A stretch of 64,000 nt of DNA, from assembly GCA_913063225.1 (NCBI GenBank), contig CAJXYP010000011.1, forward strand, positions 1 through 64,000. The letters run 5' to 3'. Each line of letters begins with the position of its first letter. The stretch's first letter is position 1. The notes under the pieces are model-generated. The model did no database searches. It had not been told where the DNA came from and worked only from the letters and a program-made list of their open reading frames with translations. Below, one piece after another: positions 4,289 through 18,855 of the stretch. Both the position numbers and the translations under genes were made by a program. This stretch comes from an uncultured Cellvibrionales bacterium. GTDB taxonomy: Bacteria > Pseudomonadota > Gammaproteobacteria > Pseudomonadales > GM7GCV1.

Positions 4289-5340
4289 AAATTCTCGACC
4301 GTTACGTTGGTGGCATGGTTTTGCGTTCAACAGCGCTAGTACTATTTGTAATTCTGGCATTGGATTCTGTAAGTGATTTACTAGAGCAAATGGGTGAACT
4401 TCAGAGCGGCTATAACCTGGGAGCTGCATTACTTTATGTAGCGCTAAAGATTCCGGGAAGCGCGGTGGATTACCTTGGTTTTTCTGCCTTAATAGGCTGC
4501 TTGGTGGGTATTGGTGGTCTCTCAAATAATTCTGAGCTTACCGTTATGCGCGCCGCGGGTGTATCCACCTTACAGGTGGTTGGCATGGTGCTTAAACCGA
4601 CGTTGCTTCTAATTATTTGTAGTGTGATAGTTTCTGAATTTGTTGCGCCAAATCTCGAGCAACTGTCTCAAAGCCGTAAAGATCTGCTGCGCGGCACTTC
4701 ATCCACACAGCAAGCTGCGGGTACCTGGCTGCGCGACGGTTCTGACTATCTGCACGTAAATGCGGTATATCCAGATGGAGAGCTCTATGGAGTAAGCCGG
4801 TTTCAATTGCAGAATAGACAGCTTGAGATCCTTAGTTTTACCGAAAGAGTAATTTATCAGAATGGTGTGTGGACTGAATATAGGGTTAACGAGACGCAGT
4901 TTCATGCTGAGACAACGGAAACACTTCGCCTGGATTCCCGATTGTGGGAAACCGAATTGACACCAAATATTCTCGACATGGCATCTATGCAGCCGGCACA
5001 GCTGTCTGTGAGGGATTTAGACGCCTTCAGTAGATACTTGGGGTTAGATACGCGGTTCGCGGGAAGCTATCGTTTGGAGTTTTGGTCAAAAATATTTGAA
5101 CCGTTTGCAATAGCTGCGTTGGTTCTTGTTGGCTTGTCATTTGTCTACGGGGCGAGCCGTAGCGTGGCCATCGGACAAAGAATATTCTTGGGGGTTCTAG
5201 TAGCTGTGGTATTTAAACTGGCCCAGGATATTCTCGGTCCAGCTAGCAGTATTTGGGGTTTTTCTCCGTTGATTGCTGTGCTGTCACCCATCCTCGTGAC
5301 AATAGTTGTTGGACTCTGGTTACTCAAGAGGCAGAGGTAG
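4285..5340 (+). CDS. lptG: LPS export ABC transporter permease LptG
   Basis: Partner permease of LptF. The 351 residues start MKILDRYVGGMVL, with the same 3 + periplasmic domain + 3 membrane layout (membrane segments near residues 15-35, 60-80, 95-120, and 270-345). The overlap ATGA with lptF indicates a two-gene operon. It ends 18 bases from the convergent RDD-family gene, and no strong terminator is visible in that gap. Confidence 0.96.
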   Translation: MKILDRYVGGMVLRSTALVLFVILALDSVSDLLEQMGELQSGYNLGAALLYVALKIPGSAVDYLGFSALIGCLVGIGGLSNNSELTVMRAAGVSTLQVVGMVLKPTLLLIICSVIVSEFVAPNLEQLSQSRKDLLRGTSSTQQAAGTWLRDGSDYLHVNAVYPDGELYGVSRFQLQNRQLEILSFTERVIYQNGVWTEYRVNETQFHAETTETLRLDSRLWETELTPNILDMASMQPAQLSVRDLDAFSRYLGLDTRFAGSYRLEFWSKIFEPFAIAALVLVGLSFVYGASRSVAIGQRIFLGVLVAVVFKLAQDILGPASSIWGFSPLIAVLSPILVTIVVGLWLLKRQR

Positions 5341-5358
5341 GGTCACAAAAAACAGTGT

Positions 5359-5874
5359 CTATTTTTTAGGGCGTTTATCCAATCTGATAATTCGGGTATC
5401 GGAATAACGGTCATGAAAAGCAATTTTCTGCGGATCAAATAGCATCCAAAAATAGCCCATGCCTAGAGCAGCGAACGATAAAAATCCTAACCCCGATCTA
5501 ACTATGCATTTTGCCAAGCTTGGTTTTCCACCATCTGCACTGACCAACTTGAGCCGCCATGTCTGCATGCCCAGAGTCGCACTTCTGAAATACCAAAACC
5601 CGAGATAAAAAAGCAAATAAGTAATGACTAAGCCTGACTGAAATAGCGGGCCACCCAAGGCCGGACGAAATTCTTCGTCCGCTTGCATCATCAGGATATC
5701 TCCTTCACTAACAACGCTTATATGCTCTTGATCGAGCTCTATACCAATAGCTAGGGCAACGGACATCACTATTGCGGAATAGGCGAAACCAACCGCAAAA
5801 AGAAGAAATAGGTCATATACAAGCGAGCCGAGGCGGGGGACTAGCTTTGCTAGGGGTAAGTTGAATGTAGTCAA
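5359..5874 (-). CDS. RDD family membrane protein
   Basis: A 171-residue integral membrane protein with the RDD family pattern: PRLGSLVYDLFLLFAVGFAYS near residues 13-33 (the Arg and Asp of the first helix), a second long helix around 80-100, and TWRLKLVSADGG followed by two more helices. The family role is poorly defined; some members act in ion exchange or stress adaptation. RDD genes are often found next to lptFG in gammaproteobacteria. The gene is convergent with lptG and I see no partner for it on its own strand. Confidence 0.85.
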   Translation of the reverse strand: MTTFNLPLAKLVPRLGSLVYDLFLLFAVGFAYSAIVMSVALAIGIELDQEHISVVSEGDILMMQADEEFRPALGGPLFQSGLVITYLLFYLGFWYFRSATLGMQTWRLKLVSADGGKPSLAKCIVRSGLGFLSFAALGMGYFWMLFDPQKIAFHDRYSDTRIIRLDKRPKK

Positions 5875-6516: not shown

Positions 6517-7779
6517 GTGAACCAGAAAAGCTCTCCTGCCGACTTACCTCGATTTGTATTGCCAATCATGGCTGCAGTTGTTGCTATTGGCCCTTTTGCA
6601 ATAGATGCCTATCTTCCGGCATTTCCTTATATAGCTGCTGACCTGGGTGTTAGCCCTTTAGCTGTGGGGTATAGCTTAAGTGCCTACTTATTCGGCATGG
6701 CCTTTGGGCAGCTCTTGGGCGGGCCAATTTCTGACCAAATTGGTCGCCGGAATATCGCGGCGGCCGGCCTATCTGTATTTGTATTGGCGTCCATAGCCAT
6801 CATGTTTGTCGACCGATTGGACTACTTGATAGCAGCACGTGCAGTTCAAGCTATTGGAGCTGGATTTGCCTCTGCCGTTGTAATGCCTACTATTCGAGAT
6901 TTGTCGCCGCCAGAAAAACTTGCCAGTCGCTTGGCGATGGTGTTTTTTATTATGCTGGTGGCGCCCTTAATTGCCCCCATAATTGGTGTTGGTTTGATGC
7001 AGCTTGGTTGGCGGTGGATCTTCGGATTTTTGGCTCTCTATTGCTTGTTTCTACTAGTGATATATTTAATCTTTTTGCCTGAAACAAAGGTGAGCACTCA
7101 GAAAAAATTTAGCTTTAAAAGTATCTATTCCCAGTACCGGTTTGTATTTCAGTATCGACTTGAGGGTGTTCGAGTACCCATTCTCTATGGGCTTTCAGCA
7201 GCGCTTTCTAGCAGCATAATGCTGATATATGTCTTCAATGCGTCCTTTATTTTTCAAACCTATTTTGGTGTTTCTGATGTTATGTTCCCGCTATTTTTTG
7301 GCGTCAATGTCTTAGCCTTAGGCATCGTTCAGGGCCTCAGCGCCCGATATTTGCGCAGTCGGAACCTAATTGAGGTCGCTGCTTTTTTCCGGTTTGGCCA
7401 AAGACTGCAGCTTATTGCTATTTCTCTTTTGTGTGCAGCGGTTATTTTCACCGATACTACGCTTTGGATATTTGTGCCACTGATGGTAATTTCCTTGGCC
7501 TGTTTGGGTATCGTAAGCCCTTCTGGTTCAGGACTTTTCTTAGCTTCCTTTGATGACCACAGCGGCAGCGCTTCATCGATTCTAACCACAGGTGCATTTG
7601 CTTTTGGTGGTCTTCTAGGTGTTTTGTCAGGGTTGCTTAATAAAGCGGATCTACTTTCAATAGTTGGCATGATGCTGATAGCAACACTGCTGGCAAATTT
7701 ATTGCTGATGACGTTATCCAGAACTCACGAGAAGTCCGTTCTTGAAAAGGTTCAATCCGGCGAGATCGCTGCGGTTTAG
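6517..7779 (+). CDS. MFS multidrug efflux transporter, Bcr/CflA type (copy 1)
   Basis: A 420-residue inner-membrane drug:H+ antiporter of the major facilitator superfamily with about 12 membrane helices. The stretch IDAYLPAFPYIAADL near residues 28-42, GGPISDQIGRR between helices 2 and 3, and the length fit the Bcr/CflA subfamily, whose substrates (bicyclomycin, chloramphenicol, others) cannot be read from sequence. A GTG start is required by the frame; GGAA lies just upstream. The next gene downstream is a full-length paralogue without gaps, and the sequences before both starts and after both stops are also alike. Expression is likely monocistronic. Confidence 0.9.
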   Translation: MNQKSSPADLPRFVLPIMAAVVAIGPFAIDAYLPAFPYIAADLGVSPLAVGYSLSAYLFGMAFGQLLGGPISDQIGRRNIAAAGLSVFVLASIAIMFVDRLDYLIAARAVQAIGAGFASAVVMPTIRDLSPPEKLASRLAMVFFIMLVAPLIAPIIGVGLMQLGWRWIFGFLALYCLFLLVIYLIFLPETKVSTQKKFSFKSIYSQYRFVFQYRLEGVRVPILYGLSAALSSSIMLIYVFNASFIFQTYFGVSDVMFPLFFGVNVLALGIVQGLSARYLRSRNLIEVAAFFRFGQRLQLIAISLLCAAVIFTDTTLWIFVPLMVISLACLGIVSPSGSGLFLASFDDHSGSASSILTTGAFAFGGLLGVLSGLLNKADLLSIVGMMLIATLLANLLLMTLSRTHEKSVLEKVQSGEIAAV

Positions 7780-7944
7780 CCATACATGAATCCCCGCCGG
7801 TTACAAAACTAAAAAAATTTTGCGTCCCTATGGGGTCCGCAATTTCCTCCATCGGTTTTGTTTCCATATAAATCTATCCACACCGATTTACTTCCTTTAT
7901 TGGCTTCTGCATAGTGCCGCTTCCTTTTTACATCTCGGAATCTT

Positions 7945-9207
7945 GTGGACCAGAACCGTTCAGATGCCAATTTGCCTCGATTTGCGCTACCGATATTAGC
8001 CTCTGTTGTTGCTATTAGTCCCTTCTCCACAGATGCATATCTTCCGGCCTTCCCAGATATTGCGGCTGATTTGGCGGTTAGTCCGGTCGCTCTTGGGTTT
8101 AGCTTAAGCGCCTATTTGTTTGGCAATGCTATTGGACAATTAATAGGTGGACCTGTCTCTGACCAAATAGGCCGTCGCAAAATTGCGGTAACTGGTCTAT
8201 CTATTTTTGTTTTGATGTCCATCTCGATGCTATTTATCGACCGGCTCGACTATTTAATAGCAGCGCGAGTGGTTCAAGCGATCGGTGGTGGATTAGCTTC
8301 CGCCGTCGTAATGCCTACTATTCGCGATCTATCTGCACCAGAAAAAGTTGCCGCACGAGTGGCGATGGTCTACCTGATTATGTTGATAGCTCCGTTGATA
8401 GCTCCGATAGTAGGTGTTGGTTTGATGCAGTTTGGTTGGCGATGGATATTCGGGTTTATGGCTGCCTATTCGTCAATCATGTTAATCATTTATTCTGCTG
8501 CTTTGCCGGAAACAAAGGCGGTAAAGCAGAAAAAAATAGGATTTGGCAGAATCTTTTCACAGTACCGTTTTGTATTTCAGTATCGATTGGAAGGATCTAG
8601 AATACCCATTCGCTATGGGCTCTCAGTAGCGCTTTCAAGCAGCATAATGCTGATCTATGTGACCAATGCATCTTTTATCTTTCAGACCTATTTTGGCATC
8701 ACCGACATTATGTTCCCGGTATTTTTTGGCCTGAACGTATTAGCTCTGGCAATAGCTCAGGGGATAAGCGCCAGATATCTTCGCAATCGGAGCCTTACCG
8801 AGGTCGCCACATTCTTTAGATTCGGTCAGAGGCTGCAGCTGATAGCAGTTTCGCTGCTGTCTGCGGCAGTTATATTTACCGATATTACGCTTTGGACATT
8901 TGTACCCCTAATAGTGGTTTCATTGGCCTGCATGGGCATTGTGGGTTCTTCTGGTTCTGGCCTATTTTTAGCTTACTTTGACCACCACAGTGGCAGTGCG
9001 TCGTCGATTCTAACAACAGGAATGTTCTTTTTTAGTGGTGTGTTAGGTATCTTTTCTGGCCTATTGAATAACGGCAACCTGGTATCTGTGGTTGGCATGA
9101 TGCTAATAGCAACACTGCTCGCGAATCTAATACTTATGACTGTATCAAGAGCTCAGGAGAAGTCGGTACTTAACAAGGTTCAGTCCGGAGAGATCGCTGC
9201 GGTTTAG
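7945..9207 (+). CDS. MFS multidrug efflux transporter, Bcr/CflA type (copy 2)
   Basis: A 420-residue paralogue of the preceding transporter, aligning end to end without gaps and identical at roughly three residues in four by eye. It also uses a GTG start in the same context, with TTCTGCATAGTGCCGCTTCC upstream of both copies and GAGATCGCTGCGGTTTAGCCATA at both stops. Differences cluster in membrane helices and the central loop, as expected if substrate range has diverged. It arose by tandem duplication of a ~1.43 kb unit including its control region. Confidence 0.9.
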   Translation: MDQNRSDANLPRFALPILASVVAISPFSTDAYLPAFPDIAADLAVSPVALGFSLSAYLFGNAIGQLIGGPVSDQIGRRKIAVTGLSIFVLMSISMLFIDRLDYLIAARVVQAIGGGLASAVVMPTIRDLSAPEKVAARVAMVYLIMLIAPLIAPIVGVGLMQFGWRWIFGFMAAYSSIMLIIYSAALPETKAVKQKKIGFGRIFSQYRFVFQYRLEGSRIPIRYGLSVALSSSIMLIYVTNASFIFQTYFGITDIMFPVFFGLNVLALAIAQGISARYLRNRSLTEVATFFRFGQRLQLIAVSLLSAAVIFTDITLWTFVPLIVVSLACMGIVGSSGSGLFLAYFDHHSGSASSILTTGMFFFSGVLGIFSGLLNNGNLVSVVGMMLIATLLANLILMTVSRAQEKSVLNKVQSGEIAAV

Positions 9208-9334
9208 CCATAAATTTGTCTCAGTCGTTTACAAATCTAAAACAAGTTTACGTCCTTATTGCGGTCACGATACTCTAGTATGGATTTAAGTATAAAAACC
9301 GACTGAATTTATCAGTGCAATCTGGGGGTGTTCC

Positions 9335-11083
9335 ATGACCATACTTAGAACTGGTCTATTTTTAATCCTACTGTCCGTGGCGTCAATTCTGGCTCCAGCT
9401 ATGGTCTTGGCACAAACTAATGATGAGCTAATCGCCGAGGGCAAAGAACTCTACTTTCAGCAGATATCTTGCTGGGTATGCCATGGCGACGATGCCGAAG
9501 GGCGAATCGGTCCAACCATCTCATACGGGCCAACGCCAATGCAGATCCAAGAGCAGCTGGATGCCAATCCGCAGATGGCTATTATCGTCTCTGAGTTGAA
9601 TCCGGATGCAGACGATCTGGTTGCGCTTTCTACTTACCTTAGTTCGCTAAGCGGAAAATCGATCAGTTCAGAAGAGCAAGCAGTTTGGCGCGCAGACTTA
9701 GCGGCATATATAGAAGCAAATGAAGATAATACTGAATATGTAATTACCGACCGGGATCGACAGATTCTGGCAATAAAATCCTTTGATACGGTGCTTGACG
9801 ATTGGCAAAAAAGGTCTAAAGACGGCCCCCTTATGCGTGAATATGAATCAACTATCGTTGCCGAATATGACGCTGGCGAGCAAGTATTTTTCCCTGAGGA
9901 TGGCGGTCTTTATTTTTACGAAAATACCGGCGTCTCTACCTCTCGCGGTGGCGTTACCGTTGTTGACCGTATCAACACTAATCAAGTGGTAGTTGGCAAC
10001 GCCACTACTCGTGAAATTATTACATCCAAATTAATTCCTGAAGAAATGCGCGGCTCAATGCATACCACCGTTATGTCTCCGGATGGCCGCTATGTCTATA
10101 TGGTAGGACCTCCAGTTGCCGGTGGTGGTGTCGAGGGCGGTGGCGCACCTCCCGGAATGCGCGGGTCGGCCACTATGTTAAAGATTGATGCGCTTACTTT
10201 AGAACCCGTTAAGCAAATAGCCATTGGTGGCCGTTTACACCACGGCCAGGTTTTTCAGGATAGATACCTGCTGCTGGATGTGTTTGTTGCTGAACCAGAC
10301 GGTCTGAATGTTTTCTTGTATGACCCTGATATGGATGAAGTAATTGGTGGTATCAGGGCTTCGGATCTGGGTGGTAATAACTACACAGCCTATACCGATG
10401 ACGAGTTTATATATGTCTTAATGCAGCCACCGGCGGTGGAAGGTTTCCCCGGCGGAGCAAATCAACTAATTGTGGGATCGGCAACGGCATTGCGACCCTA
10501 CTGGGTTTCCAAGCTAGACCCAGAAACTTGGGAAGTTGTCGAAGAATACCCACACCGGGGTTATCGCGGTGATTGGATCACGATCGATTCTGCCAGTGAG
10601 CATATTTATGTGCCAACTGCGTCTTCTTCGGTAAATAAAATCAATACGGAAACTGGCGAAATTGTATGGTCGGCCCCAACGGGAGTAGGGCCTTATTCTG
10701 CCACGCTGAATGCGGACGAATCTCAAGTATGGATCGCCAACAAGGGCGAATCCTCCGGAGCTATTGGCCGCACACTTACGGTAGTGGATGCTAATAGCGG
10801 CAGAGGCGTAGCCACTATATTCGCAGGCTATATGACAGATCACGTATTACTTTCGCCCAACGGCAAAGAGATGTGGGCTACCAGCAATGGCGAAGGCCGC
10901 ATCTATGTATTTGATGCGGAATCCCACGAACAGCTGGATGTGATTGATATGCCTCATCATGGTGATCCACACGGATTAGTATGGGTTAAATACGATGAAA
11001 ACGGCAATTCATTGGTGGTTCGAGATCAGGGTGGATTTCACAATGGAATTGATCCAGCAGCGGGAATTCCGCTACTGGATTAA
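9335..11083 (+). CDS. Secreted cytochrome c / YVTN-type beta-propeller protein
   Basis: A 582-residue exported protein. Signal peptide to about residue 26 (cleavage after VLA), then a small class I cytochrome c domain with the haem-binding CWVCH at residues 46-50, then a long C-terminal region of repeated Tyr-Val / Trp-Ile-Ala-Asn strands (YVYMVG, IYVPTASSSV, VWIANKGE, MWATSNGEG) typical of YVTN/YncE-type seven-bladed propellers. GGGGGTGTTCC before the ATG supports the start. Such fusions usually act as periplasmic electron-transfer subunits of dehydrogenases or as binding proteins; no catalytic partner is next to it. The substrate is unknown. Confidence 0.8.
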   Translation: MTILRTGLFLILLSVASILAPAMVLAQTNDELIAEGKELYFQQISCWVCHGDDAEGRIGPTISYGPTPMQIQEQLDANPQMAIIVSELNPDADDLVALSTYLSSLSGKSISSEEQAVWRADLAAYIEANEDNTEYVITDRDRQILAIKSFDTVLDDWQKRSKDGPLMREYESTIVAEYDAGEQVFFPEDGGLYFYENTGVSTSRGGVTVVDRINTNQVVVGNATTREIITSKLIPEEMRGSMHTTVMSPDGRYVYMVGPPVAGGGVEGGGAPPGMRGSATMLKIDALTLEPVKQIAIGGRLHHGQVFQDRYLLLDVFVAEPDGLNVFLYDPDMDEVIGGIRASDLGGNNYTAYTDDEFIYVLMQPPAVEGFPGGANQLIVGSATALRPYWVSKLDPETWEVVEEYPHRGYRGDWITIDSASEHIYVPTASSSVNKINTETGEIVWSAPTGVGPYSATLNADESQVWIANKGESSGAIGRTLTVVDANSGRGVATIFAGYMTDHVLLSPNGKEMWATSNGEGRIYVFDAESHEQLDVIDMPHHGDPHGLVWVKYDENGNSLVVRDQGGFHNGIDPAAGIPLLD

Positions 11084-11119
11084 CAGTCCCACATAAGTTT
11101 TACGAGATACTTTGAGGGT

Positions 11120-11734
11120 CTAGTCGGTAAGATTTAGGCACTCAAAGTTTTCTGCACGATTTGAATCGAGGTTTGGTGCTTTTAAACGAGCTACCTCAGG
11201 GTAGGGGCACCAAGGCCGCGACAATTCTCGCTCTTCGTTAGTAGCAATAATTGAGTTCGGTGCCTGACCCGCTGTAACCCAAGCGTCAAGCGCCTCAATC
11301 GCGGATTGGGTATAGGTATTAGCGCCTGAGCCACCTCTACAGTGGCCCATTCCTGGTGCTAGAAATAATCGCAAATGATCTTCAAAATCAGATACACCGC
11401 GCCTTGCGGTTACTGTTGCGTTCATCGCTTCATATAGGGCGATGGTATTGCGTGGAGTTACGCTTGTATCTGTCAAGCCATGATACAAAATGGCTTTGCC
11501 TCCAGACTGAACAAAGGCAGTTACATCTGGATTGTCCGCTCGAGTTACCGCTGAATAGAAAGATGAATCGGCGGCTGCAACATGCTCTGGATTATTTATG
11601 CTGAAATTATTCAGCATGTCTGCATTCGGATCCTGAAACCAGGCTCTGCTGACCAAATCACAGCGGCCCCTGCCGCTATCATCATCCTTTGAACATACTA
11701 AGTTGGTTCTAAAGTACCACTCATGAGAATACAT
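11120..11734 (-). pseudogene. Tannase/feruloyl esterase family, C-terminal fragment
   Basis: The 204-residue frame matches only the C-terminal part of tannase/feruloyl-esterase family proteins. It has the GGKAILYHGLTDTSVTP strand, which carries the conserved Asp, and APGMGHCRGG, which carries the catalytic His. The N-terminal half with the nucleophile Ser is missing, and there is no signal peptide. Its first residues (MYSHEW) are translated from the end of the repeat at 11721-11824, so the gene is truncated exactly where the repeat begins. It is probably non-functional. Intact relatives are secreted or periplasmic enzymes of roughly 500 residues or more that hydrolyse esters of phenolic acids. 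Confidence 0.75.
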
Positions 11735-11824
11735 GAGAAGCTATACCGAGGAAGTGGCGATCACGTAAGCGACTGAATTAGTTGGTAATGCTATAAATCA
11801 GTTTAAATTGAAAATCCCCGCGTC
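11721..11824 (-). repeat. Cassette-like repeat, copy A
   Basis: A 104-bp repeat nearly identical to copy B but with exactly one fewer 10-bp unit. In minus-strand order it has GACGCGGGGATTTTCAAT, an imperfect hairpin (arms around CAGT.../GACTGA), the constant block GTCGCTTACGTGATCGCC, then two 10-bp units of the form TTCTCATGNA. It lies between the 3' end of the gene ending at 11832 and the truncated tannase frame. TTACGT and TATAGC with a 17-base spacer could act as a promoter reading toward the downstream gene. Confidence 0.8.
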
Positions 11825-11831
11825 TCAATTG

Positions 11832-12281
11832 CTAAAATTCCAGATAGCCACCGTTAGTAACTTTGTATTGTTTAGTTCGGCTTAGGCGTGGACAACACCT
11901 TGGATCGTCTGGGCGATAATCTAGGTATTTAATGATGAGCACATCCTCTTCCAGCTCCACATTCTCAGCAATTCCAGAGATTTTGAGTGAGGCATTTTCC
12001 GTATATGTTATTCCGTCAGTAGTTAGTGAGGTAATCCTGTATTCCCAAAAGTTGGCTACCCTGTATAGCCAGACCACAGAAACTTTGTTTTCGCTGGTGA
12101 CAAAGAAATTCTCCAGTTGACCGTGTTCATTGTCAGAGATCATACCGGTCTGATGATCTTTGATTTGATCTTGAATAAATTGGTTAACTACTTCTTCAGT
12201 GTTAGAAACAGAAATACTTGATAACAGTAAAAGCGGTAGCGCGAGAATTCCTTTTCGCAGTTGTGGTGTGTTCAAATTCAT
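11832..12281 (-). CDS. Hypothetical exported protein
   Basis: A 149-residue protein with an N-terminal signal peptide (MNLNTPQLRKGILALPLLLL, cleavage near SVS) and no domain I recognise. The mature part is mostly beta-rich, ends YKVTNGGYLEF, and has a Cys pair near the C-terminus (PRCCPR). The start at 12281 is chosen over an upstream in-frame ATG because that longer frame only adds translated repeat (MYSHEW). The gene is bracketed by repeat copies A and B in direct orientation, like a cassette. Confidence 0.6.
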   Translation of the reverse strand: MNLNTPQLRKGILALPLLLLSSISVSNTEEVVNQFIQDQIKDHQTGMISDNEHGQLENFFVTSENKVSVVWLYRVANFWEYRITSLTTDGITYTENASLKISGIAENVELEEDVLIIKYLDYRPDDPRCCPRLSRTKQYKVTNGGYLEF

Positions 12282-12306
12282 GTGGCAATCTCGTCCATTT
12301 GTCCAT

Positions 12307-12420
12307 TCATGAGAATACATGAGAATGCATGAGAAGCTATACCGAGGGAGGGGCGATCACGTAAGCGACTGAATTAGTTGGTAATGCTAAAAATCAGTCT
12401 AAATTGAAAATCCCCGCGTC
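12307..12420 (-). repeat. Cassette-like repeat, copy B
   Basis: A 114-bp copy with three tandem 10-bp units (CATGAGAATA, CATGAGAATG, CATGAGAAGC on the plus strand), then TATACCGAGGGAGGGGCGATCACGTAAGCGAC in pieces shared with copies A and C, an imperfect hairpin (GACTGAATTAG ... CTAAAAATCAGTC), and ATTGAAAATCCCCGCGTC at the right end. It lies immediately upstream of the exported protein gene starting at 12281. Confidence 0.8.
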
Positions 12421-12560
12421 GGAGATTAGAGGCAGTCGCTGGCATCATTTAGACTTAAGTATGATCTGACCCAATTACTGTATACCCTGTGACTGACATT
12501 GAGAGTTGTTTTATTCCAGCAACCCTGCGATGTCCTCAAAAATACAGGAGGGATTTTGAT

Positions 12561-14099
12561 ATGAATAACCGTTTCAATAGAAGAACGGCTGCACCATTAG
12601 CCGTGGCGATCAGCTTCGGGCTTTTTGCCTGCACACCAACCATTACACCGACCTTAAATACTCAACATGCAATGCATAGCAATCAGCCTATGCAGCAGAA
12701 ATTTGTTTCTGACAAGGTTGTTACTTCAGATTGCGGGCCAATTTTCATAGCACCGGACGTACCCGGTTTTGCCATACCAAATGGCGCCGAAGCACGAGAT
12801 ATGCCGCCGCCAATTGCTGAGATGCAAGCGGTAGGGGCTGGCAGAGAACTATTGCCGACGGATTATGACCGCGTTTCATCCGGATACATGCTGATTGAAC
12901 CCGTTGCGACAAAACAGTCTTTCCTCATAAATAATGAGAAAGAAGTTGTTGCCACATTTGAGGGCGACTACTACCGCGGCTACACCCAGATACTGCCAAA
13001 TGGAAATCAACTAGCGACCAATTATGTTCGCGCAGAACTCTTCGTACGCGGCGGTGGCGCTAATGGCTGCGTAGAGGAAATATCAGTTGAAGGTGATTTG
13101 CTATGGCGGCTAAATCTTAATACTGACGAATATGTGTCACACCATGATGTCATCAAACTGGAAAACGGTAACATTCTCGCCCTTATCTGGGAGATGACAA
13201 CAGCGGAAGAAGCAATTAGCTTAGGGCGCAATCCGGAAAATGTAGCCGAAGACGGTACTTTTTGGTGGGACAGTATTATCGAAGTTAATCCATACACTTT
13301 TGAGGTGGTCTGGGAGTGGAGCTCGAAACATCACCTTATTCAGGATTTTGATGCCACCAAACCTAATTACGGCGTAGTTGCTGATCATCCAGGGCGTATG
13401 GATATCAACAAGTTTTATCAATTCATTTCTCCTGATATTCCGGCGGAGTGGGCACATACCAACGCCATGGACTACCACCCCGAACTCGATCAAATAGTTA
13501 TTTCATCAAATTATCTCGGAGAAATTTGGGTTATTGATCACAGCACTACACCCAGAGAATCCATTACAAGCAGTGGCGGGCGCTACGGCAAAGGCGGTGA
13601 ATTTCTGTATCGATGGGGTAATCCAGTCAACTATGACCGTGGTACCGATGAAGACCGTATTATTTTTTACCAACACGACGTTCAGTGGATACAACCGGGC
13701 CTTCCCGGTGCCGGCAATATACTTATATTCAACAATGGTCACCCAGTCTTAAGACCATACTCAACAGTGGTCGAATTCACTCCGGACATGAATGCCGACG
13801 GCACTTACAACCTCACAGAAAATGAAAGCTACGGACCCGAAGAATTGGTTTGGGAATACAACCCAGATCCGTCCGAGCAATTTTATTCTTGGTTTATTTC
13901 CGGTGCGCAACGACAGCCCAACGGTAATACTCTGATCAATCACGGTGCCAACTCTAATGTACGAGAAGTAACCTCTGACGGCGAAATAGTCTGGGACTAC
14001 TCCTTTAGAAACGGAGCCGATGGGCCCCATATGCTCTTCCGCGTCTATCGATTCGCTCCGGATCATCCCGGAATAGTGAGCCTGCTGGAGAATAACTAA
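12561..14099 (+). CDS. Arylsulfotransferase (ASST)-family lipoprotein
   Basis: A 512-residue lipoprotein. The signal peptide ends in the lipobox LFAC, so the protein should be anchored in the periplasm or outer membrane. The mature part matches ASST-family beta-propellers: HHDVIKLENGNILALIW, HTNAMDYHPELDQIVISSN, GNILIFNNG and NGNTLINHG are successive propeller blades with the family's His residues. Bacterial ASST enzymes transfer sulfate between phenols. The start at 12561 is preferred over a GTG 24 codons upstream because CAGGAGGG lies 8 bases before it and the signal peptide begins there. No dsbA/dsbB-like partner is adjacent. The precise substrate is unknown. Confidence 0.8.
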   Translation: MNNRFNRRTAAPLAVAISFGLFACTPTITPTLNTQHAMHSNQPMQQKFVSDKVVTSDCGPIFIAPDVPGFAIPNGAEARDMPPPIAEMQAVGAGRELLPTDYDRVSSGYMLIEPVATKQSFLINNEKEVVATFEGDYYRGYTQILPNGNQLATNYVRAELFVRGGGANGCVEEISVEGDLLWRLNLNTDEYVSHHDVIKLENGNILALIWEMTTAEEAISLGRNPENVAEDGTFWWDSIIEVNPYTFEVVWEWSSKHHLIQDFDATKPNYGVVADHPGRMDINKFYQFISPDIPAEWAHTNAMDYHPELDQIVISSNYLGEIWVIDHSTTPRESITSSGGRYGKGGEFLYRWGNPVNYDRGTDEDRIIFYQHDVQWIQPGLPGAGNILIFNNGHPVLRPYSTVVEFTPDMNADGTYNLTENESYGPEELVWEYNPDPSEQFYSWFISGAQRQPNGNTLINHGANSNVREVTSDGEIVWDYSFRNGADGPHMLFRVYRFAPDHPGIVSLLENN

Positions 14100-14150
14100 T
14101 AGGTGATAAGGGTTTTGGCTCTGTTAATTACTGAATATCGACCCAACGAA

Positions 14151-14176
14151 AAAGACCGCTAGTTATAGCGGCCTTT
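14151..14176. terminator. Bidirectional hairpin terminator
   Basis: Stem CCGCTA/TAGCGG (14156-14161 and 14166-14171) with a 4-base loop, extended by AAAG and CTTT across one mismatch. It lies between the convergent arylsulfotransferase-like gene and the minus-strand gene at 14215. On the minus strand it is followed by a run of T. Confidence 0.7.
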
Positions 14177-14189
14177 GGTAGTGCAGTGG

Positions 14190-14210
14190 ATTGAAAATCC
14201 TCGCGTTGGA
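14190..14210 (-). repeat. Partial cassette-like repeat, copy D (right end only)
   Basis: ATTGAAAATCCTCGCGTTGGA resembles the right end of copies A and B (ATTGAAAATCCCCGCGTC). It lies 5 bases beyond the stop of the gene at 14215, the same place as in copy A relative to the gene at 11832. Confidence 0.55.
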
Positions 14211-14214
14211 CTAG

Positions 14215-14724
14215 CTAATCATTGTCTTCGTTGATTTTTAAGCCCAGATTAGAATATTGATAGCGAGGCTCTCCCAGCAGAAGTAGAAATGGTTCAATTT
14301 CCTCATAATCGTATGCGATGTTGAGAATCTCTCCGTCAGATAAAACAGCTAGATACCTACCTACTTCATAACCACTTGGTGCTCCGCAGCTGTCTAGTAG
14401 TGATCTTGTGTAAATTAGCTCACGACCCGATTGATATCCCCAGCCATAGATCAGCTCTATTTTTGCAACCCAATACTCCCCAATTACCTGATCACTAAGA
14501 AGGCTGATAATTGCTAGGTCAGGATAGGTCTCAAATGTGTTTTGTACTTGTTCTTCAAAACTAGCTGACGGAGATGGAACCCATTCTCCCCAAGGTGCTT
14601 CTGGAGTTTTTACGAGCTGAAAAGGTGGCGGCGCAAGAGTACACGCATAAATAGCAGGAGAAATACCCATACCAATGGCAATCAGAGAGAAGATTATTCT
14701 TGTAAGGTATTTCGGACGTAGCAT
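14215..14724 (-). CDS. Hypothetical exported protein
   Basis: A 169-residue protein with a signal peptide (MLRPKYLTRIIFSLIAIGMG, likely cleavage after IYA) and a Cys right after it (CTLAPPP). There is a second Cys in LLDSCGAPSGYEVGRYLAVL, so a disulfide is possible. I recognise the general style of small secreted proteins of marine gammaproteobacteria but no defined family. The start at 14724 is chosen because the 14 codons before it run into repeat copy C and GGAAG lies upstream. It is flanked by repeat copy C on its 5' side and partial copy D on its 3' side. Confidence 0.6.
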   Translation of the reverse strand: MLRPKYLTRIIFSLIAIGMGISPAIYACTLAPPPFQLVKTPEAPWGEWVPSPSASFEEQVQNTFETYPDLAIISLLSDQVIGEYWVAKIELIYGWGYQSGRELIYTRSLLDSCGAPSGYEVGRYLAVLSDGEILNIAYDYEEIEPFLLLLGEPRYQYSNLGLKINEDND

Positions 14725-14757
14725 TTTTGTACTTCCAAGCTGTGTACTTGTCTTCTC

Positions 14758-14818
14758 AGAATACATGAGAATGCATGAGAAGTTATACCGCGGAAGGGGT
14801 GATCACGTAAGCGACTGT
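14758..14818 (-). repeat. Cassette-like repeat, copy C
   Basis: It shares the tandem 10-bp units (AGAATA, CATGAGAATG, CATGAGAAGT) and the block TATACCGCGGAAGGGGTGATCACGTAAGCGACTG in pieces with copies A and B, then diverges. A different imperfect hairpin follows (CTTAG ... CTAAAG). TTACGT-17-TATAAC is conserved in the same position as a possible promoter. Confidence 0.75.
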
Positions 14819-15178
14819 CTTAGCCCTTTCCTAAAGGTCAGGTGAGTTGTGCTTAAAACGCTGCTCTAATCTATTTTCACTCGGCCTTCATCTCCACATG
14901 CTACTTCCCTGTGGAGGTGGGTCGAGTGTCTTCAAATTAAGAATGCTATTTTGTGGATGTGAAAGTTTTGCTTTGATCGCGGTGTCCTCCTTGAAGCCTC
15001 TTCGACTTTTCTTGCCCGCCCCCATTAGAACAAGCGGAGTGAAGTTATTAACAATGAAATCAGGTAAATAGAAGTCTTACCCATCCCTCGCGCGCGTACT
15101 GCTCCGAAAACTCCTTTTTATAGTGACAAGAAACTCTTTTCTAATATGTCCGAAAACCATTTTTATAGTGTAAGAAAA
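14819..15178. other. Intergenic region, left edge of the integrative element
   Basis: About 360 bases without a gene I can support. A 74-codon plus-strand frame and a short minus-strand frame exist, but neither has a family resemblance or a good ribosome site. The right part holds a direct repeat (separate entry). The left boundary of the integrative element is probably here or further left; I could not find a copy of the tRNA-Leu 3' end in it. Confidence 0.5.
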
Positions 15179-15185
15179 CTATTTG
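15101..15185. repeat. Two imperfect 46-bp direct repeats
   Basis: Units at 15101-15140 and 15146-15185 share TCCGAAAAC, a T-rich run, TATAGTG and AAGAAA in the same order, with a period of 46 bases. The second unit reaches the stop codon of the Rep-like gene. They could be protein-binding sites, part of an origin, or a terminator region. Confidence 0.65.
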
Positions 15186-15760
15186 TTTAACTTGGGTTTT
15201 ACACGACTCGTTGAGTAGTCGTTCGCACTGGTCGCCCTGTATCCCTTGCCCCTTGTTTTAGCTAGATAGGAAAGCCGGTAGAAGGGTTCAGCTAGGCTGC
15301 TCGAATTAGCCCGCTTCACATTGTAAAAGCAGTTCTCAGGTACAAAGGGTCGAGGATGGTTTCTGTTCTCCCATCGCGCGCTGATCCATCCCAATAGAGC
15401 CGAAGGGTGTTGTATCCGATTGCCGTCAAGAATTAAGGCAACGTGATAGTGCTGCTTCTTGGCCTTCTCTTGCTCACGCGCCCAGAGATAGCCCATTCGC
15501 TTCGCACCGTATCGCTTCAAGTAGTGATTCCTTATCTTGTCCAAAAAACGCGAAAGCTCTTTGTTGTCTTCGGTCTGGTAAGACATGTGAAGATCAAAGC
15601 GAACCACCAAAACCCGGCTATGATGGCTTAGCATGACGGCTAATTGCCCGCTTATCGCGACCAGAATTTCTCGATAACATCCCTGATCACTTTTGCCGCT
15701 TTGTATAGCCAGCTCACGACCGCAGCACTCAAAAGTTTTAGAGTAAATTGCGCGTTTCAT
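15179..15760 (-). CDS. YagK/YfjJ-type (inovirus Gp2-like) replication protein
   Basis: A 193-residue basic protein resembling the YagK/YfjJ C-terminal domain family, found in the E. coli CP4-6 and CP4-57 islands and in filamentous-phage-like elements. The core VVRFDLH, then MGYLWAREQEKAKKQHYHVALIL with a His-x-His (HYH) pair, and a basic tail fit a rolling-circle-type initiator fold, with HYH as the metal-binding site. Rep function is an inference from the family and the motif. It is the last gene of the element, downstream of three small genes read in the same direction. No clear ribosome site precedes the ATG at 15760. Confidence 0.75.
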   Translation of the reverse strand: MKRAIYSKTFECCGRELAIQSGKSDQGCYREILVAISGQLAVMLSHHSRVLVVRFDLHMSYQTEDNKELSRFLDKIRNHYLKRYGAKRMGYLWAREQEKAKKQHYHVALILDGNRIQHPSALLGWISARWENRNHPRPFVPENCFYNVKRANSSSLAEPFYRLSYLAKTRGKGYRATSANDYSTSRVKPKLNK

Positions 15761-15892
15761 AGGACAGAATTGCTAGTAAAGGTAATACTGGCTCTATAGA
15801 TATTATGAAATACCGAGTAACCCAAACCCTGAACGAATCGATCCAGTACTTGCCGTCCTTGGCGTTACTGATCGAGAGTTTCGATTTTTGCG

Positions 15893-15932
15893 GGGTGGGA
15901 TTTCGGTCACTCCGCTTATGGGTGGGATTTCG
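15893..15932. repeat. Iteron-like 13-bp direct repeats
   Basis: GGGTGGGATTTCG occurs at 15893-15905 and again at 15920-15932, 27 bases apart, in the gap upstream of the Rep-like gene. Such repeats are often initiator- or regulator-binding sites. This is only two copies, so the role is a guess. Confidence 0.55.
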
Positions 15933-15973
15933 AATATTTATGTTTTGCTTGCATACGGTCGGAGCGCCTTTGC

Positions 15974-16162
15974 TCACCGCTCATTCTCCAAGCTCTCTAT
16001 GAGTTGAACCGAAGGTGTTGGTTGATCTTCTTCGTACCAACGCTGTCCTGCCTCTCCTTCGCCACTTACTGAGCGACCTATTGCGTCAATAGGCGAATCC
16101 GCCTCAACAAAGATGGGTATCGTATAAGTTACCCTTTGATCCACACGATATAAGCCTCTCAT
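15974..16162 (-). CDS. Small hypothetical protein of the integrative element
   Basis: A 62-residue frame (MRGLYRVDQRVTYTIPIFVE...) overlapping the upstream zinc-ribbon-like gene by 4 bases (16159-16162), which argues for coupled translation and a real gene. The protein is acidic at the C-terminus, with no membrane segment and no motif I recognise. The mid part (VEADSPIDAIGRSVSGEGEAGQ) is reminiscent of small adaptor-like phage proteins, but this is no basis for a function. Confidence 0.55.
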   Translation of the reverse strand: MRGLYRVDQRVTYTIPIFVEADSPIDAIGRSVSGEGEAGQRWYEEDQPTPSVQLIESLENER

Positions 16163-16407
16163 ATCGCCTCCATGCTCGGCTTTGACCCCAAAATGGCTAG
16201 ATCCTCGACATAGACAGGGTCGGGTAGGGGTAAGGTAGCGAGTAGGCTTCTAGAGTCTCCTTTTGCGCTGCTTTTAGGCCGAAACTCCCACAAGGGGCAT
16301 TTGCTCATTCCACAAGTTTCCACCTGCTGTCGCCAAGTTCCTTTGACAAAGGGATCATAGATACATTGTTTGCAATTGAGATTGATAGCCTTACGCATGC
16401 TTCTCAT
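16159..16407 (-). CDS. Small Cys-rich (zinc-ribbon-like) element protein
   Basis: An 82-residue protein with four conserved-looking Cys: CKQCIYDP near residues 12-19 and CGMSKCPLWEFRP near 32-44, with GTWRQQVE between. This C-x2-C ... C-x4-C spacing with CPLW-x2-RP is frequent in small phage and island proteins and suggests a structural zinc. It overlaps alpA by 4 bases upstream and the 62-residue gene by 4 bases downstream, forming a tight three-gene unit. The function is unknown. Confidence 0.65.
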   Translation of the reverse strand: MRSMRKAINLNCKQCIYDPFVKGTWRQQVETCGMSKCPLWEFRPKSSAKGDSRSLLATLPLPDPVYVEDLAILGSKPSMEAI

Positions 16408-16628
16408 AAGGCCTCCGGATCAACTTCTCGCTCATCAACCCACTGATTGATTTCGCTTAGCCTCCAGGCGCTGGCTCTGCCCCCAGAGACGAGCTTTACC
16501 GGTTTGGGGAAGAGCCCTTTACTTATGAGTTGATGGATATATGAGCGGCTGAGACCGACAATCGGTCTAACTTCCTGCCATCGAAGTAGTTGGTCGACCG
16601 AACGGTCGGATTTGGATTGAAAAACCAT
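16404..16628 (-). CDS. alpA: AlpA-family regulator / excisionase
   Basis: A 74-residue DNA-binding protein of the AlpA/MerR-like winged-helix family. LLRWQEVRPIVGLSRSYIHQ at about 15-34 is the helix-turn-helix, followed by ISKGLFPKPVKL and the wing ending WRLSEINQWVDER. In P4- and CP4-like elements AlpA proteins activate integrase or control excision. It begins the overlapping small-gene unit. Two inverted repeats directly upstream could be its operator. Confidence 0.85.
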   Translation of the reverse strand: MVFQSKSDRSVDQLLRWQEVRPIVGLSRSYIHQLISKGLFPKPVKLVSGGRASAWRLSEINQWVDEREVDPEAL

Positions 16629-16708
16629 GCTAGTTCCTCCTGTCCGAAATGGACGTTATCAAGCATGGTCAGGTATTCTAAGCATATATTTTTGAAATAC
16701 ACGGACAG
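16624..16708. promoter_or_regulatory. Inverted repeats upstream of alpA
   Basis: ACCATGCT (16624-16631, overlapping the alpA start) and AGCATGGT (16662-16669) are inverted copies. GTCC/GGAC at 16642-16645 and 16651-16654 form a smaller inverted repeat, and CGGACAG at 16702-16708 is the complement of the CTGTCCG at 16640-16646. This is operator-like structure at the head of the alpA unit, probably for AlpA or a phage-type repressor. Confidence 0.45.
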
Positions 16709-16713
16709 AAAAC

Positions 16714-17370
16714 TTACTTTTTGTCCTCTTTCATTTTCTCCTTCCAGCGACGATACCCACGGAGAAATGAATCGATATCAGGAGGGGCGGCTTGGTTTCC
16801 GAAATATTCTTGCCTCGAAATGTCCTGATCCAAGGTTTTGGTTTGTTGGTATTTTGTTTCCCTACTGGCTGCAATTGAATCGAAGAAAGCGAGGGCTGAG
16901 CATTCTTTTGTAGCGAACCCCTGTTCGGAGTTCTCTAGATACTTGTCGAACTCCTGAAAGGAGTAATGTCTATTTGGGCCAAATTCTTTTGAGATTCTAG
17001 AGGACCGAGGGCCAGTGCGCTGCATGGGTTTTCCAAAAAAGATTTCTTCTAACGATATTTTTTCCTTATAAACGGCCTCACTTAGCAGGTAGTGTCGCAT
17101 GGCATCAGTAATCGCAGTTGTAATTTCAGGTGGCACTAATACTCCACGCTCACACCAATATGTTAGAGCTTCTATCGGGCTGCTGTAATGATCGGATTCT
17201 CTTCTTAACGCTTCTAATTCCGTCGCGTCAAACCCAGAGGCAAGGAGAGATAATTCCCAACTGCCGTGACCTCCGTCACCTTCGTCTCGCTGTAATTCAG
17301 CCAAGCGGATATGCTCAACATATTCCCAAGTGTTGAAGTAATTGTTTGGCTTGTCGTCAGGCTTAAACAT
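16714..17370 (-). CDS. Hypothetical protein of the integrative element
   Basis: A 218-residue hydrophilic protein without signal or membrane segments. The N-terminal half (residues 1-110) is acidic and helical, the C-terminal half more basic and ends KEKMKEDKK. I recognise no domain; ALTYWCERGVLVPPEITTAI resembles a stretch common in small proteins beside P4-like integrases. The start at 17370 is favoured over a TTG six codons earlier because GGAG lies 6 bases before this ATG. It lies between integrase and alpA and ends 86 bases before the alpA start. It could be element-specific regulation or cargo. Confidence 0.6.
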   Translation of the reverse strand: MFKPDDKPNNYFNTWEYVEHIRLAELQRDEGDGGHGSWELSLLASGFDATELEALRRESDHYSSPIEALTYWCERGVLVPPEITTAITDAMRHYLLSEAVYKEKISLEEIFFGKPMQRTGPRSSRISKEFGPNRHYSFQEFDKYLENSEQGFATKECSALAFFDSIAASRETKYQQTKTLDQDISRQEYFGNQAAPPDIDSFLRGYRRWKEKMKEDKK

Positions 17371-17395
17371 ATGAAACTCCGTGCCCAAGTGTTAT

Positions 17396-18610
17396 TTAAA
17401 CAGTGCCGAACTTTACTGGCACCACATTTGAGCCTGTCTCCAATTGCTCAAGGTAGTCAGCCCACCATTGCATCATCACTACTCGATCCTTCAAGTATTC
17501 GGCATGGTGCGTGTATGCGCCTCTGACGTCGTTTCGCTCTATGTGCGATAGCTGACGCTCAATCGCGTCTGGTTTGAACCCTTCTTCGTTAAGGATTGAC
17601 GAGGCGGTTGCCCTGAACCCATGAGGAGTCGCTTTCTTGTGATATCCCATTCGGTGCATTGCAAAGGTCATGGTGTTTTCTGAAATAGGGCGGCTCACAG
17701 ATCGCTCACCAGGGAAAACAAGCTCGTGTTGCCCAGTGAGTGGATGTAGTTCATTCAGCAATGTGATTGCTTGCCTAGAGAGTGGGACAAGGTGATCTGT
17801 CCCCATCTTCATGCGCTCACCGGGTATGCGCCAGATCTCACCACCTAGATCGAACTCTTCCCATCTGGCGTAGCGAATTTCTCCAGGTCTAGCAAAAGTC
17901 ATAATAAGTAATCGAAGAGCGTAGATGGTTGTTGGGTAGCCATCGTACATGGGTAGCTTCTTGAGAAACGTCGGAAGTTCTGCTCTAGGCATGGATGGCC
18001 GGTGAGTAACCTTTCGGGTTTTAAGTACTCCAGTGAGCTCAGACGCCGGATTTACTGACGCTCTTCCTGTTTGCACCGCATATCGGAATACATTTGAACA
18101 TCGCTGCAAAACTCGGCCCGCAATCTCAAGTGCGTCCCTAGATTCAACCTTCCGCACCACTGCTAGTACCTCAGGAGGTTGAATTTCTGATACTGGCCTA
18201 TGGCCGAGGTAGGGGAAGACTTCATTCTCTAGTGAGTCGATGACTCGTTGCGCATAGGCTTCGCTCCATATTCCTTTCTGATGGCCCCACCATTCGAGGG
18301 CAATGGATTTGAAGGAGTTTTCTGCATTGACCTTGTTCTTTATTTTCTGAAGTTTGCGAACCTCTCCTGGATCTTGATTGTCGCGAAGCAGGCTGCGGGC
18401 ATTGTCGGTGAGGACTCGAGCATCTTTCAGACTGACTTCGGGATAGACGCCAAGAGCTAGAAGCTTCTCTTTCCCGCCGAAGCGATACTTCAATCTCCAG
18501 TATTTGGAGCCGGTCTTCGCAATGAGAAGGTAAAGGCCTCGACCATCAGAAAGCTTACGATCCTTTTCGCTAGCCGTGGCTTTTTGAATGGCTGTGGCAG
18601 TCAGAGGCAT
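17396..18610 (-). CDS. int: P4-type tyrosine integrase
   Basis: A 404-residue site-specific recombinase. Residues 1-85 are the DUF4102-type arm-binding domain (LSDGRGLYLLIAKTGSKYW), then a SAM-like core-binding domain, then the catalytic domain with the first Arg in ARPGEIRYARW, the HGFR box (TPHGFRATASSIL) and the nucleophile Tyr in the GAYTHHAEYL stretch. This family integrates islands into tRNA 3' ends, and the tRNA-Leu lies 158 bases from its start, in the same orientation, as usual. The element appears intact enough to be mobile. Confidence 0.93.
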   Translation of the reverse strand: MPLTATAIQKATASEKDRKLSDGRGLYLLIAKTGSKYWRLKYRFGGKEKLLALGVYPEVSLKDARVLTDNARSLLRDNQDPGEVRKLQKIKNKVNAENSFKSIALEWWGHQKGIWSEAYAQRVIDSLENEVFPYLGHRPVSEIQPPEVLAVVRKVESRDALEIAGRVLQRCSNVFRYAVQTGRASVNPASELTGVLKTRKVTHRPSMPRAELPTFLKKLPMYDGYPTTIYALRLLIMTFARPGEIRYARWEEFDLGGEIWRIPGERMKMGTDHLVPLSRQAITLLNELHPLTGQHELVFPGERSVSRPISENTMTFAMHRMGYHKKATPHGFRATASSILNEEGFKPDAIERQLSHIERNDVRGAYTHHAEYLKDRVVMMQWWADYLEQLETGSNVVPVKFGTV

Positions 18611-18645
18611 TGATGAATATATCTATTCGAAAATATACCCCCAAA

Positions 18646-18668
18646 ATGTACCCCTATTAGGGGTACAT
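18646..18668. promoter_or_regulatory. Perfect 23-bp palindrome upstream of int
   Basis: ATGTACCCCTA, one base, TAGGGGTACAT: 11-base perfect arms about 35 bases upstream of the int start, next to TATACCCCCA, which repeats one arm loosely. It is likely an integrase arm site or an int operator. Confidence 0.6.
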
Positions 18669-18768
18669 AACAATAGACGTTAGTAGACGGCTGCAGATTA
18701 AGTGTTGGCTTTATAGCCTAAACTTAAAGGGTTTTGAAGACATTGGTTGATGTCTGAATTACTTTCTG

Positions 18769-18855
18769 TGGTACCAGTGGGCGGACTCGAACCGCCACGC
18801 TATTGCTAGCGGGGGATTTTGAATCCCCTATGTCTACCAATTCCATCACACTGGC
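18769..18855 (-). tRNA. tRNA-Leu (CAA)
   Basis: An 87-base leucine tRNA with the class II long variable arm. The acceptor arm GCCAGTG pairs with CACTGGT (G-U at the first pair), the anticodon arm is GGGGA-TTCAAAA-TCCCC with anticodon CAA (complement of 18819-18821), and the T arm has GGTTCGAGTCC. CCA is encoded at 18769-18771. This isoacceptor is a known integration site for P4-like islands, and the integrase gene begins 158 bases beyond its 3' end. Confidence 0.97.

Follow-up and report, generated by a model that had tools for sequence, protein, structure and literature searches.

Among known systems that stockpile single-gene cassettes, integrons are the main one, and CIMEs, which PMC7563491 mentions, are accreted, integrase-less remnants of islands at tRNA sites. 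Anticodon-centred crossover has been described as a main class of tRNA attachment (Islander; PMC4383910). In the additive island fGI-2 of Ca. Methylopumilus, the recurring repeat is the last 20 nt of tRNA-Lys, while the tycheposons of Prochlorococcus, with 4-200 kb, begin at an intact tRNA (PMC10872708). The dif modules of Acinetobacter plasmids place genes between short recombination sites (PMC6449649). Here, we compare with these systems a repeat family in a 64,000-nt stretch of contig CAJXYP010000011.1 (the window), in its genome (G000), a congener (G002) and a sister genus (G004). We propose, with a probability of roughly 0.6, that the repeats bound integrase-less, non-autonomous attachment cassettes of a tRNA-Phe type, which accrete in arrays and reach non-tRNA sites.

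A repeat family in the window and its genome

Sequence comparison in the window located the copies A-D of a preliminary description at the places given there. Copies A (11722-11824), B (12307-12420) and C (14758-14818), all on the plus strand, form one direct-repeat family, with 95% identity between A and B over 103 nt. Copy A consists of 10-bp direct repeats, a promoter-like block, GATCACGTAAGCGAC and, at its right end, a core of tRNA-Phe type (11805-11824, plus strand); B, whose core lies at 12401-12420 (plus strand), carries one 10-bp unit more, and C is a left half alone, without a core. Both cores were assigned by comparison with tRNA-Phe. As claimed, A and B differ by one unit; a few substitutions separate them besides. 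Of the constant block said to be common to the repeats, the 15-mer GATCACGTAAGCGAC matched exactly in A, B and C only across the whole window, but not in D; allowing up to three mismatches gave six matches in the window versus 0.99 expected from shuffles. ATTGAAAATCCCCGCG matches A and B exactly, and D (at 14190) with one mismatch. Rather than a partial copy, D (14177-14209, plus strand) is a stand-alone tRNA-Phe-like core, 88% identical to tRNA-Phe over 33 nt and without any remnant of the tandem-repeat part, and forms the left edge of a cassette at 14206-14818. The variable hairpin described inside the repeat received no folding support in six full copies (z-scores -1.4 to +0.4). Several repeat copies keep the direct repeats and lack the right-end core. 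A search of window positions 11000-15200 against Rfam gave no match at E <= 1, so a known RNA family was rejected as the identity of the repeat, and a leader peptide was likewise rejected for the start MYSHEWT common to several ORFs, because these residues come from in-frame translation of the 10-bp repeat. Another dispersed repeat, ~120 bp long (CCTAAAGGTCAGGTGAG..GCTGCTCTAATCT..CTCGGCCTTCATCTCC..GTGGAGGTGGGTCG) occurs at 14815-14935 of the window, directly right of truncated copy C, and on G000 contig C20 at about 9290-9410 (locus L017, about 5290-5410), left of a solo core.

In the window, the repeats bound a series of genes. The gene at 11120-11734 (minus strand) encodes the C-terminal third of a tannase/feruloyl esterase (profile positions 324-489 of 490), and its mechanical start falls in copy A's direct repeats. 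The interval from core A to core B holds a minus-strand gene (11832-12320) without a Pfam match, which would have a signal-peptide-like N terminus if an inner ATG is used. An arylsulfotransferase-like gene (12489-14099) in the opposite orientation, on the plus strand, occupies the interval between cores B and D, and another minus-strand gene without a Pfam match (14215-14766) that between core D and copy C. An arrangement in which the tandem end abuts the 5' side of a minus-strand gene and the other end follows a gene's 3' end, as initially described, applies to A, C and D but not to B, whose right end faces the start of the plus-strand gene 68 nt on. Similarly, the label of secreted-protein genes fits as a local impression, but cassettes elsewhere carry transporters, acetyltransferases, a regulator and a copper operon.

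Searching the G000 genome (2.26 Mb, 32 contigs) with copy B revealed the ~110-bp repeat on five further contigs (C18, C2, C20, C14 and C17), among them an array of three full copies on C18 and a copy with 6.6 ten-bp units on C20. A sequence-only model built from 11 copies and run over 391 genomes of the order matched in G000, G002 and G004 only, that is, in two genera. Many loci were thus found in the genome and its relatives, and the situation that would speak against cassettes, in which only copies A-D exist and relatives keep the same order, was not encountered. Phage and plasmid collections gave no match to the repeat; in viral contigs, GGCGATCACGTAAGCRACT had no match and CATGAGAANNTATACCG had 27, none with the repeat around it and hence taken as chance. 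The long repeat pattern was not matched in GTDB contigs, a set from which the source or near genomes are possibly missing. On G000 contig C14 (40876-40967; locus L018, 6850-6990), sdhE-like and ygfX-like genes flank a full repeat that comes without a cassette gene and whose promoter-like part points toward the second, ygfX-like gene.

With the 10-bp repeats drawn left and the core right in each copy, a unit reads core, gene or genes, then repeats with the promoter-like block. Fifteen of 20 repeat copies lie within -15 to +133 bp of an opposite-strand gene's ATG, another three lie 32-47 bp past the stop of a plus-strand gene, and most cores are 7-69 nt from a stop codon on the opposite strand; random positions come as close to a start as the repeats and to a stop as the cores in 5.3% and 3.6% of cases, figures that describe more than they test because ORFs were chosen mechanically and distance limits set after looking. 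The cargo is unrelated, comprising arylsulfotransferase, MFS, AraC/DJ-1, DUF418, two GNATs, sulfatase and RpiB genes, a three-gene copper operon (CopA, CopB) in G002 and, in G004, a TonB-type receptor and a small membrane-type protein enclosed by two copies.

On the minus strand, promoter-like hexamer pairs with 17-nt spacing are present in A (11740-11768; TTACGT at 11768-11763, TATAGC at 11745-11740), B (12336-12364; TTACGT, TATAGC) and C (14782-14810; TTACGT, TATAAC). In eight copies TTACGT (at most one mismatch) is always 17 nt from the second hexamer, which reads TATA(A/G)(C/G) in 7/8. The conserved TTACGT-17-TATA(A/G)C promoter of the earlier account thus holds for the hexamers of A, B and C and for the spacing in all eight copies, but with slight departures in the hexamers, and a generic sigma-70 promoter scan flagged none of the pairs in A, B and C. 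A promoter role of the block is plausible. It would read into the gene in the usual orientation, as had been suggested, but some cassette genes face away, so that the repeat is more than just the promoter of a gene. Beside gene starts, truncated copies retain the direct repeats and TATACCG but have lost the -35-like part. Selection may therefore act on the direct repeats, which could serve as arm sites of an integrase or as an operator.

tRNA-Phe origin of the right end

While the repeat ends do behave as cassette-like boundaries, the preliminary description overlooked where one of them comes from: judged by alignment, the ATTGAAAATCCCCGCG end is a displaced tRNA-Phe fragment beginning at the anticodon loop. 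The intact tRNA-Phe gene of G000 lies on contig C12, and used as a query tRNA-Phe found fragments at the repeat ends and also solo at other gene borders (core pattern count 17 versus 3 for a reversed control). At 20 sites, ungapped identity to tRNA-Phe in 6-nt bins was 0.16-0.33 before position 31, rose sharply from 0.30 to 0.93 at position 31, in the anticodon loop, followed by 0.89, 0.83, 0.62 and 0.54, and returned to background level after position 61, fading past the T arm; these sites were chosen by their core, so that the height of the plateau is partly selection, which applies less to the flat upstream part and to the way in which homology reaches into the T arm. The sharp edge thus falls at a known crossover subsite, like that of cores of anticodon-targeting integrases, which points to a tRNA attachment site.

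For comparison, G178, of the same order, has a tRNA-Phe gene with a prophage-like island, and a 48-nt piece of tRNA-Phe that is displaced and begins at the same loop. In G002 a degenerate repeat copy lies 2.4 kb downstream of tRNA-Phe, and the G000 arrays are away from tRNA-Phe. Downstream of a tandem pair of tRNA-Phe islands, contig C11 of G178 (locus L241, 18745-18996) further carries three tRNA-Phe 3'-end pieces at intervals of ~114 bp, with a terminator-like hairpin after each. The left arms of some solo cores are palindromic, which we count against the attachment-cassette reading; since host sites with mirrored left arms would be rare by chance, this suggests that the element carries part of the left arm along when it moves or that palindromes are the preferred targets of the recombinase.

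Gain and loss between species

At shared loci, different genomes carry different genes between copies, as the preliminary description had asked, here in comparisons between species. Units were gained or lost in both directions, as expected for tRNA-associated integrative units: between a cytochrome-type gene and tRNA-Leu cassettes are present in G000 (in the window) and absent from G002, between an RDD gene and an MFS gene cassette ends are present in G002 and absent from G000, and between a DNA-alkylation-repair gene and metH G000 has an array with about six cores and G002 none. GNAT and sulfatase orthologues (82-83% protein identity) are found at different loci. Because the genomes are ~25-30% apart in DNA (~70-75% identical), single insertion events are not datable. 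The resemblance to a cassette array is therefore supported by many loci, tight bounding of genes and differing cassettes in shared neighbourhoods. In the window, at 6517-9207, two MFS transporter paralogues stand in tandem where G002 has one homologue.

The competence-helicase gene comM/yifB is intact in G001, G003 and G004 and is split after TTCCAG, at the same codon, in G000 (contig C2, 131700-133490; locus L016, 6700-8500) and G002 (contig C94; locus L026), so that its function was probably lost in both. The first ~150 bp of the two inserts, including the first core, are homologous and the remainder is different, with two GNATs as cargo in G000 and two small genes, RpiB and an SRAP-like gene in G002. 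The insertion edge is TTCCAG and not a tRNA core, which we count against a tRNA-Phe attachment cassette.

Mobilisation and comparison with known systems

In the mechanism that we favour, the core end would be an attachment core copied from tRNA-Phe, from the anticodon loop through the T arm, and the other end an attP-like arm, in which the 10-bp direct repeats would act as integrase arm sites beside a promoter-like block that reads into genes in their usual orientation, with about 65 bp left up to the crossover. In a circular form of the cassette, arm and core would meet and make up a complete attachment site, and a tyrosine integrase would act at the 7-nt anticodon loop TTGAAAA, with tRNA-Phe, the core of another cassette (resulting in arrays) or secondary sites as insertion targets. 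Related species hold different genes at shared sites, which looks like integron-style shuffling on a tRNA attachment site. It is possible, though we put it forward only tentatively, that this is an independently evolved second cassette-shuffling system of single-gene circles with a tRNA-Phe core and an in-site promoter, mobilised in trans, spread through a family of small-genome marine Gammaproteobacteria and using non-tRNA platforms like comM.

The main gap of the attachment-cassette reading is the helper integrase, which may have been lost or may lie in unassembled DNA, unless movement now occurs by other means. The six PF00589 matches of G000 are two Xer-type recombinases (labelled Xer by score and length), one fragment, the integrase of a tRNA-Leu island in the window and two others, and none of these profile matches adjoins an array as IntI would. 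Just downstream of tRNA-Phe in G000 lies a decayed integrase start, a DUF6538 N-terminal domain that then runs into stops. DUF6538 need not be the cognate type, since the DUF6538 integrases at tRNA-Phe in G092 and G307 duplicate the 3' end or T loop only. The tRNA-Leu(CAA) island (15179-18855) encodes a P4-type integrase (17396-18610, minus strand), an AlpA-like gene (16404-16628, minus strand) and a YagK/REP-like gene (15179-15760, minus strand), and three iteron-like repeats of 22-23 bp lie nearby at 15108-15184. This integrase was rejected as the mobiliser because its tRNA is Leu(CAA) and the cores are of tRNA-Phe; the island is probably separate.

Without any active dedicated recombinase, the repeats could be remnants of old tRNA-Phe islands kept as promoters, with genes exchanged by homologous recombination. 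In line with this, PF00589 matches in G002, as in G001, are Xer-type only, without DUF6538, leaving G002 without an intact non-Xer recombinase; truncated copies retain direct repeats and the -10-like part beside gene starts, and A and B are alike enough for homologous exchange. We nevertheless consider it unlikely, as it explains neither the arrival at the unrelated sites comM, a moa/moe operon and sdhE-ygfX nor the equally tight bounding of plus-strand genes. Still less probable is another kind of transposition, hairpin-recognising as in IS200/IS605-like elements or cut-and-paste, with the tRNA-like hairpin as terminal structure. An extended stem turns some solo cores into near-perfect hairpins (C18, z -6.9; G2C58, z -4.0; G2C42, z -3.2), and TTCCA(G) stands at both comM insertion edges like a short target duplication, but other cores have no stable hairpin, terminal inverted repeats were not seen, and homology extends into the tRNA-Phe T arm, which a hairpin would not need. 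It is very improbable that XerC/XerD move the units in the manner of dif modules: in G002 and G001 no tyrosine recombinases other than Xer enzymes were detected, but the repeat matches the E. coli dif 28-mer at best at 13-17 of 28 positions, against a mean of 14.4 and a maximum of 18 for shuffles. Ordinary integron cassettes with unusual attC sites, despite the compact repeat-gene-repeat arrays, can be dismissed almost entirely, since the core is tRNA-Phe, no stable attC-like fold was seen and, confirming an earlier remark, neither GTTRRRY nor RYYYAAC occurs in four copies on either strand.

If integrase-less tRNA-Phe cassettes are indeed the correct reading, they would be a tRNA-site analogue of integrons and show how the ordinary integration of islands can give rise to the shuffling of cassettes. 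They would also explain in concrete terms how additive islands and small insertions form in streamlined marine bacteria. The cassettes share with integron cassettes the layout, compactness, one recombination site per gene and changing array content, but have neither attC nor attI, no G000 PF00589 match that adjoins an array as IntI would, and a promoter-like block inside the site of the unit. As in Acinetobacter dif modules, genes lie between short sites without a recombinase of their own (PMC6449649), whereas the sites here resemble dif no more than shuffles do. Tycheposons likewise belong to streamlined marine hosts and tie cargo to tRNA genes and tyrosine recombinases (PMC10872708), but the cassettes are far smaller. 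In Methylopumilus, likewise a streamlined aquatic bacterium, the variable genes of fGI-2 also stand behind recurring fragments of a single tRNA gene (PMC10872708); in contrast, the cassette fragment starts in the anticodon loop, is joined to an arm with direct repeats and a promoter-like block, and occurs at many non-tRNA loci. Like CIMEs, the units are bounded by att sites, lack a recombinase and stand in tandem, but each holds one gene or a short operon in ~0.6-3 kb instead of being a trimmed conjugative element, and their sites are not limited to the tRNA gene. We therefore group them with additive islands and integrase-less island units and not with integrons, and what is new compared with island units is their single-gene size, dispersed sites and promoter-like arm.
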